NCBI GenBank assembly: GCA_902572005.1
Contig: CACGEC010000002.1
Location: 1-64,000 of the forward strand
DNA length: 64,000 bases
Source: an uncultured Pelagibacteraceae bacterium
GTDB lineage: Bacteria > Pseudomonadota > Alphaproteobacteria > Pelagibacterales > Pelagibacteraceae
Reading direction: 5' to 3'
Shown here: one piece after another, positions 39,455 through 52,785 of the stretch
Numbering within the stretch: the stretch's first letter is position 1
How the letters are laid out: every line of letters begins with the position of its first letter
The notes under the pieces: generated by a model
Databases searched by the model: none
What the model saw: the letters and a program-made list of their open reading frames with translations, nothing else
What the model was told of the DNA's origin: nothing
Program-made: the position numbers and the translations under genes

Positions 39455-39606
39455 TTTACCCATCTGTATATTTGCCTGAGAGTTTTGCTCCTTCGGCGAG
39501 AATTTAATCTCTTTCCAGAGTTAATATGCTACGGTCCTTTTTGCCTGAGAGATTCCTGGGTGGTTGCTCCTTCGGCGCTACGATATTCTGTAGTCTCTCC
39601 CGTAAA
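39455..39606 (-). promoter_or_regulatory. Tandem glycine riboswitch upstream of gcvT
   Basis: On the minus strand the signature GCCGAAGGAGCAA...CTCTCAGGCAAA occurs twice in succession (about 39541-39606 and 39466-39519). Confidence 0.93.
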
Positions 39607-39634
39607 CCAATAATCTTACAAGTGAGTACGAATG

Positions 39635-52360: not shown

Positions 52361-52446
52361 AAGTGATATACAAAAAAAGATAGTCCTTAAAAACCGGGAG
52401 CTAAAGATGGCTAAGAAGGACTATCAATAACAATATATCAGATCTT
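52361..52446 (+). ncRNA. Candidate structured RNA or leader upstream of DUF2805 gene
   Basis: Nested helices TGATATA/TATATCA (52364-52370/52434-52440), GATAGTCCTT/AAGGACTATC (52379-52388/52416-52425), AGCTA/TGGCT (52399-52403/52408-52412). Confidence 0.5.
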
Positions 52447-52488
52447 AAAAAAAATGCATTATCTATTTTTTTCAAATATAAGGGATTT

Positions 52489-52785
52489 ATGAAAAAAAAA
52501 GGTCACAGGCCAGTCACTAGGGTCAAAAATCCTGAGCCAAAAGTTGAGGACCCAGATTGGGTCATATGGGCTGCATGGGCAGATAGGATCACTTTTGAGG
52601 AAATTGAAAAAAAAACTGGTTATTCAGAATCAAGCGTAATCAAAATTATGAGAAGATCCTTAAAACCATCTTCATTCAGATTATGGAGAAAAAGAGTAAA
52701 CCAAAAAAGTATTAAACATCGTAAAAAATTTGAATATTCAAGAAAACAAATGACTAGTAAAATAAAAAAAGGTGATTATTTATAG
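52489..52785 (+). CDS. DUF2805/TIGR03643 family HTH-like protein
   Basis: DPDWVIWAAWADRITFEEIEKKTGYSESSVIKIMRRSLKPSSFRLWRKRV. Confidence 0.88.
   Translation: MKKKGHRPVTRVKNPEPKVEDPDWVIWAAWADRITFEEIEKKTGYSESSVIKIMRRSLKPSSFRLWRKRVNQKSIKHRKKFEYSRKQMTSKIKKGDYL

Follow-up and report, generated by a model that had tools for sequence, protein, structure and literature searches.

Introduction

Few bacteria in the ocean are as abundant as SAR11. Its genomes carry few transcription factors, and how it controls expression after transcription is mostly guesswork. IstR-1 of Escherichia coli, which acts on tisB, and RNAIII of Staphylococcus aureus, which acts on spa, are trans-encoded antisense RNAs that cover the ribosome-binding site of their target. 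From Pelagibacter and marine metagenomes, the rhtB associated element was described in 2009, with its function left undecided among a terminator, a regulator and an inverted repeat, and with no target given (Meyer et al. 2009, PMC2704228). In the searchable literature, which omits most subscription journals, we found no later study of the rhtB RNA and none of a lysine-rich protein from Pelagibacter.

Here we analyze one copy of this element, located in a 64,000-nucleotide stretch of DNA from an uncultured Pelagibacteraceae bacterium (hereafter, the window). A first-pass annotation had proposed at this place a plus-strand RNA of three nested helices, either a cis-regulatory leader of a DUF2805 gene or an sRNA. 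The RNA family itself has been described before. As far as the searchable literature goes, what is new here is its probable target, the assignment of its promoter and the co-variation across loci, and an RNA that has been an orphan for 17 years thereby gains a specific target that can be tested.

Results

A search with cmscan against Rfam, which the first-pass annotation had suggested as a check, returned RF01814 ("rhtB") on the minus strand at 52443-52361, covering the full length of the model (1-83) with 82.5 bits, above the gathering threshold of 55 bits. The plus strand of the same region, which had been the strand proposed, scored 25.2 bits, below threshold. By its sequence, the element is a minus-strand member of the RF01814 (rhtB) RNA family, and it is one of the published Pelagibacter candidates to which the first-pass annotation had pointed.

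The region folds better than shuffled sequences in both orientations (z = -3.8 on plus, z = -4.3 on minus). All the strings quoted in the first-pass annotation are present in the window, and its 10-bp helix, with arms at 52379-52388 and 52416-52425, closes the 47-nt RF01814 hairpin (52379-52425, minus strand). Across loci, 98.7% of the cells of this helix are paired, two-sided changes occur at three pairs (positions 7, 9 and 10), position 6 runs through the series U-A, U-G and C-G, and none of 500 shuffles reached the covariation score of the stem. The stem GAUAGUCC/GGACUAUC that RF01814 conserves is thus found here, along with its compensatory changes. The 146 distinct loci reduce to 35 distinct hairpin forms, 10 of which carry wobble variants, at stem positions 2, 3, 6 and 9; all of these are G.U pairs on the minus strand and A.C mismatches on the plus strand, and none shows the reverse. 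As every wobble variant pairs as G.U on minus and none pairs only on plus, the comparison of loci establishes the minus strand.

The two other helices fared less well. The inner 5-bp tetraloop hairpin (AGCTA/TGGCT) does pair on the plus strand, with one G.U, but its minus-strand equivalent has a C.A mismatch in 23 of 23 aligned hairpins; the near-invariance of this segment is instead accounted for by its antisense match to a mini-gene start, described below. The 7-bp outer helix forms six or seven of its seven pairs at the window positions in only 2 of 143 loci, and at shifted positions it does no better than partners shuffled between loci; one arm coincides with the -10 box of the minus strand.

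This box, an extended -10 element (TGATATATT, 52432-52440, minus strand), lies 6 nt before the hairpin. In 145 loci, TGnTATwwT is near-invariant and in almost all ends 6-8 nt before the hairpin on minus; the mean best score of the -10 box is 6.4, compared with 4.9 for shuffled sequences, and the plus-strand side of the same loci shows no enrichment of promoter boxes. Upstream of it, AATG[CA]A recurs with a spacer of 17 in 107/145 loci and of 18 in 23/145 (130/145 together); in the window, AATGCA occupies the -35 position (52455-52460, minus strand), separated from the -10 hexamer downstream by 17 bp. The sequences thus show conservation of promoter and hairpin alike.

The absence of a U-run, noted earlier, holds on the plus strand but not on minus, where seven U (TTTTTTT, 52378-52372) directly follow the hairpin (52425-52379) and resemble the 3' end of an intrinsic terminator. 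A simple terminator scan, which allows only loops of 3-8 nt, did not call the window hairpin. The wobble pairs, the near-invariant extended -10 box and the U7 tail lead us to predict a minus-strand RNA of about 54 nt, from about 52425 to 52372, with its 5' end near 52425. A U-run of at least five follows the hairpin in 41/145 loci; in the other 104 the RNA would need processing, or would act within an mRNA.

Read on the plus strand, the loop sequence is GGGAGCTAAAGATGGCTA, which resembles a translation start. From this reading a dnaJ start (M-A-K-x-D-Y) was considered as target and abandoned, since a search with the 18-mer gave a different gene. In most genomes of relatives, the loop sequence has a second site elsewhere, and there a mini-gene begins whose product reads M(A/P)KRRKKAKKKAKK...RRRR. 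An 18-nt segment of the loop, UAGCCAUCUUUAGCUCCC (52396-52413, minus strand), is antisense to GGGAGCUAAAGAUGgCUA, which runs from the Shine-Dalgarno sequence through codon 2-3 of the mini-gene mRNA. This start-site antisense, which the first-pass annotation did not see, is the feature that, on sequence grounds, indicates function.

In 100 distinct loci, the mini-protein is 17-35 residues long and consists almost entirely of K, R and A, with a little T and P; it matched no family in Pfam or NCBIfam. The mini-gene has a promoter and a terminator of its own: TTGACA is present in 100/100 of these loci, a 5'UTR hairpin (CGAATC/GATTCG) in 97/100 and a strong terminator in 98/100. The 5'UTR hairpin, for example at locus L061, is itself conserved. 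The mini-gene is unlinked to the RNA locus; its neighbours, named by eye from translations, are an acyl-CoA-synthetase-like gene on one side and convergent CarD-like and ferredoxin-like genes on the other. Neither the mini-gene nor its ferredoxin neighbour was found in the window's assembly, which is 63% complete, and for this reason the target of the window genome itself is deduced from relatives.

Complementarity was also evident in pairing energies. The window RNA against the target starts of relatives gave a mean of -39 kcal/mol with duplexfold, which ignores internal structure, compared with -10 +/- 4.2 kcal/mol for the start regions of window ORFs, and co-folding of six natural RNA/target pairs gained 12-20 kcal/mol over the separate folds. 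In one large clade, codon 2 of the target is CCT (Pro) and the RNA still matches GCT, leaving one C.C mismatch; in genome G323, position 1 of the 18-mer is replaced by different bases at the two loci. Three viral contigs of 51-55% GC (L290, L291 and L292) also carry the exact 18-mer, where it forms the start region of a gene resembling one for a coat protein. A link to SAR11 phages was considered from these three and one further occurrence elsewhere, and was set aside as probably unrelated, the GC content of 38-55% being unlike that of SAR11 phages.

RF01814 was detected in 301/399 genomes of the genus Pelagibacter, almost always as a single copy, and in 54/57 of those at least 90% complete. 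With up to two mismatches, the 18-mer is present in all 57 of these more complete genomes and has at least two sites in 47/57, and a reversed control pattern gave almost no sites. In the 10 single-site genomes the missing locus appears unassembled. Three of them have a contig that stops at the expected mini-gene start (G004, G087 and G217, contigs C11, C7 and C16, respectively), the break falling almost exactly at the mini-gene, probably through its low complexity. Four genomes (G102, G180, G310 and G351) gave no good match to the ferredoxin neighbour of the target, and in three (G009, G230 and G245) DUF2805 was not found by a search that had no positive control. Among the 57 genomes, loss of one partner alone was not demonstrated in any, and the sequences thus show co-occurrence of the two loci.

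The two loci also change together. A G-to-A variant of the spacer, GGGAGCTAAAAATGGC, occurs in 16/399 genomes, at both loci in 13 and at the single assembled site in the other 3, and in each of the 13 variant pairs one site is an rhtB loop and the other a mini-gene start. Where both loci could be parsed (44 genomes), we counted G/G in 33, A/A in 11 and mixed combinations in 0. A tree of the flanking DNA needs three G/A changes, at least two of them forced by well-supported branches, suggesting that the change arose independently about two to three times at the least. Extended complementarity at an unlinked locus, observed in relatives, and coordinated change, two marks of a trans-acting antisense RNA, were both found.

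Outside the genus, three sister genera of the same family carry the mini-gene with other start regions (GGGAGAAAAAAATGG, AGGAGACTAAAGATGG and GGGAGATAAGATGG), and RF01814 scored above threshold in 0/27 of the sister-genus genomes. In this sample, retention of the exact spacer is confined to groups with a recognisable RNA. Weak RF01814 matches in one of the sister genera (g8) were rejected as RNAs: L384 and L387 are the antisense strand of the mini-gene start, while L379, L380 and L382 (22-30 bits) are a terminator-like 12-bp hairpin, GGTGGTCCCAAT / ATTGGGACCATC, immediately downstream of a metabolic gene. As L384 and L387 illustrate, the RF01814 covariance model partly detects its own target. 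A distant RF01814-like RNA from another family (G054, 30 bits) had no loop match to the target.

Proposed mechanism and alternative explanations

We consider it very probable, judging from the comparisons above, that this element acts in trans as an antisense RNA, blocks translation of the mini-protein without Hfq and often doubles as a LysE/RhtB leader. The small RNA would be made on the minus strand from its own extended -10 promoter, starting at the foot of the 10-bp hairpin, and its 27-nt loop would present 18-20 nt antisense to the Shine-Dalgarno sequence, the start codon and the first codons of one mRNA. Pairing would mask the ribosome-binding site of the mini-gene, so that its translation would be blocked without Hfq, and in most relatives the LysE/RhtB exporter gene would also have this hairpin as its 5' leader. 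A stable transcript, its pairing in cells and repression as the outcome are what we infer. Hfq (PF17209) was found in 0/8 genomes, among them five near-complete Pelagibacter and two from a different family, with positive controls in E. coli and Caulobacter, and an Hfq-dependent sRNA was rejected on this result in the genomes searched.

An elaboration that we regard as unlikely is a two-way trans circuit sensing basic amino acids, in which translation of the mini-ORF would report lysine/arginine supply and its mRNA and the LysE leader would control each other. The mini-ORF, made almost wholly of Lys/Arg/Ala codons, would act as the supply sensor, and pairing would switch off the mini-protein and might release from the hairpin the AAGGAC ribosome-binding site of lysE.

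The neighbourhood of the RNA bears on a second alternative, somewhat less probable still, namely that the hairpin is only a cis leader or attenuator of the LysE/RhtB gene, stopping transcription or hiding the AAGGAC site, with the mini-gene match incidental. Of the 145 loci, 113 have a LysE-type (RhtB) start codon no more than 45 nt beyond the hairpin on the side of the RNA, nearly always 4-14 nt downstream, and in 38 of those 113 a U-run of at least five stands between the two; a regulation or termination signal is also what Meyer et al. proposed (PMC2704228). Most LysE-linked loci, however, have no such U-run, and a LysE start is missing at 32/145 loci where identical hairpins recur, the window included, so that LysE control cannot be the only function. 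The identity of the loop and its coordinated change with an unlinked gene would also be left unexplained.

In the window, the RNA's own side carries a 236-residue ORF that matches nothing in Pfam, followed by a proC-like gene and, further on, by ABC transporter genes of the liv type, with no rhtB beside the RNA; linkage to rhtB (LysE) or to proC/liv varies among members of RF01814. On the divergent side, DUF2805 is constant, being present in nearly all loci, and glutaredoxin is usual. The DUF2805 gene of the first-pass annotation is confirmed (52489-52785, plus strand; PF10985, 3.6e-26; TIGR03643), but the RNA lies on the opposite strand and runs away from it, and a cis leader of DUF2805 is therefore rejected, while the same annotation's other suggestion, a genuine structured RNA that is plausibly an sRNA, holds. 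Elsewhere in the window (39522-39612, minus strand) a glycine riboswitch is present (RF00504, 63.4 bits). One contig binned as Cytophagales (L212, JAPYTU010000121.1) carries a Pelagibacter rhtB locus at 28% GC and is likely a binning contamination.

That a single transcription factor binds the shared 18-mer as DNA at both loci, the G-to-A change reflecting co-evolution of the factor, is very improbable: an 18-bp site common to two loci and changing in concert would suit it, yet the site lacks palindromic symmetry, and it stands downstream of the predicted start site at both loci, oppositely oriented with respect to each promoter. At one locus it coincides exactly with the Shine-Dalgarno sequence and start codon, and at the other it lies in the loop of a covarying RNA hairpin. 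We give even less credit to a plus-strand RNA acting as a sponge of the mini-gene start region, or encoding a leader peptide (MAKKDYQ) for DUF2805, because a good Shine-Dalgarno sequence and ATG on plus are countered by a reading frame that varies (MAKKDYQ, MAR, MVK and others), by the A.C form that the wobble variants would take, by the lack of promoter enrichment on that side and by the Rfam score below threshold. Equally slight is the case for a recent inverted duplication of the mini-gene start, functionless and kept alike by gene conversion, which would explain two similar sites but not a common tract of only ~18-20 bp, short for recombination, a GCC/GGC difference that persists across a clade, or the selection on promoter and stem.

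Discussion

The antisense reading points to regulation by RNA-RNA pairing, independent of Hfq, in a streamlined genome. It also draws attention to a genus-wide polycationic mini-gene outside the Pfam and NCBIfam families. Compared with the 2009 description of RF01814 rhtB (Meyer et al. 2009, PMC2704228), our loci share the family, the strand, the hairpin and the frequent U-run, with flanking rhtB/proC/liv genes to a varying extent; the probable RNA target, the promoter and the cross-locus co-variation are added here, and the window copy has no adjoining rhtB gene.

Among better-characterized antisense RNAs, IstR-1/tisB and RNAIII/spa resemble the proposed rhtB system in long contiguous pairing near the translation start and, for RNAIII, in having no need for Hfq. 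In rhtB, by contrast, the antisense lies within one hairpin loop of an RNA that is also an exporter leader, the probable target is a polycationic mini-protein and a search for Hfq gave no match. Type I toxin-antitoxin pairs likewise place a small ORF under an antisense RNA, but the rhtB target peptide, of K, R and A with a little T and P, is not a small hydrophobic membrane toxin, which sets it apart from that class, and the two genes are unlinked. Finally, SreA of Listeria, a trans-acting RNA derived from a 5'UTR, is similar in that the leader of one gene acts on the mRNA of another, whereas rhtB has no riboswitch, would carry its antisense in the loop and in some copies stands alone.
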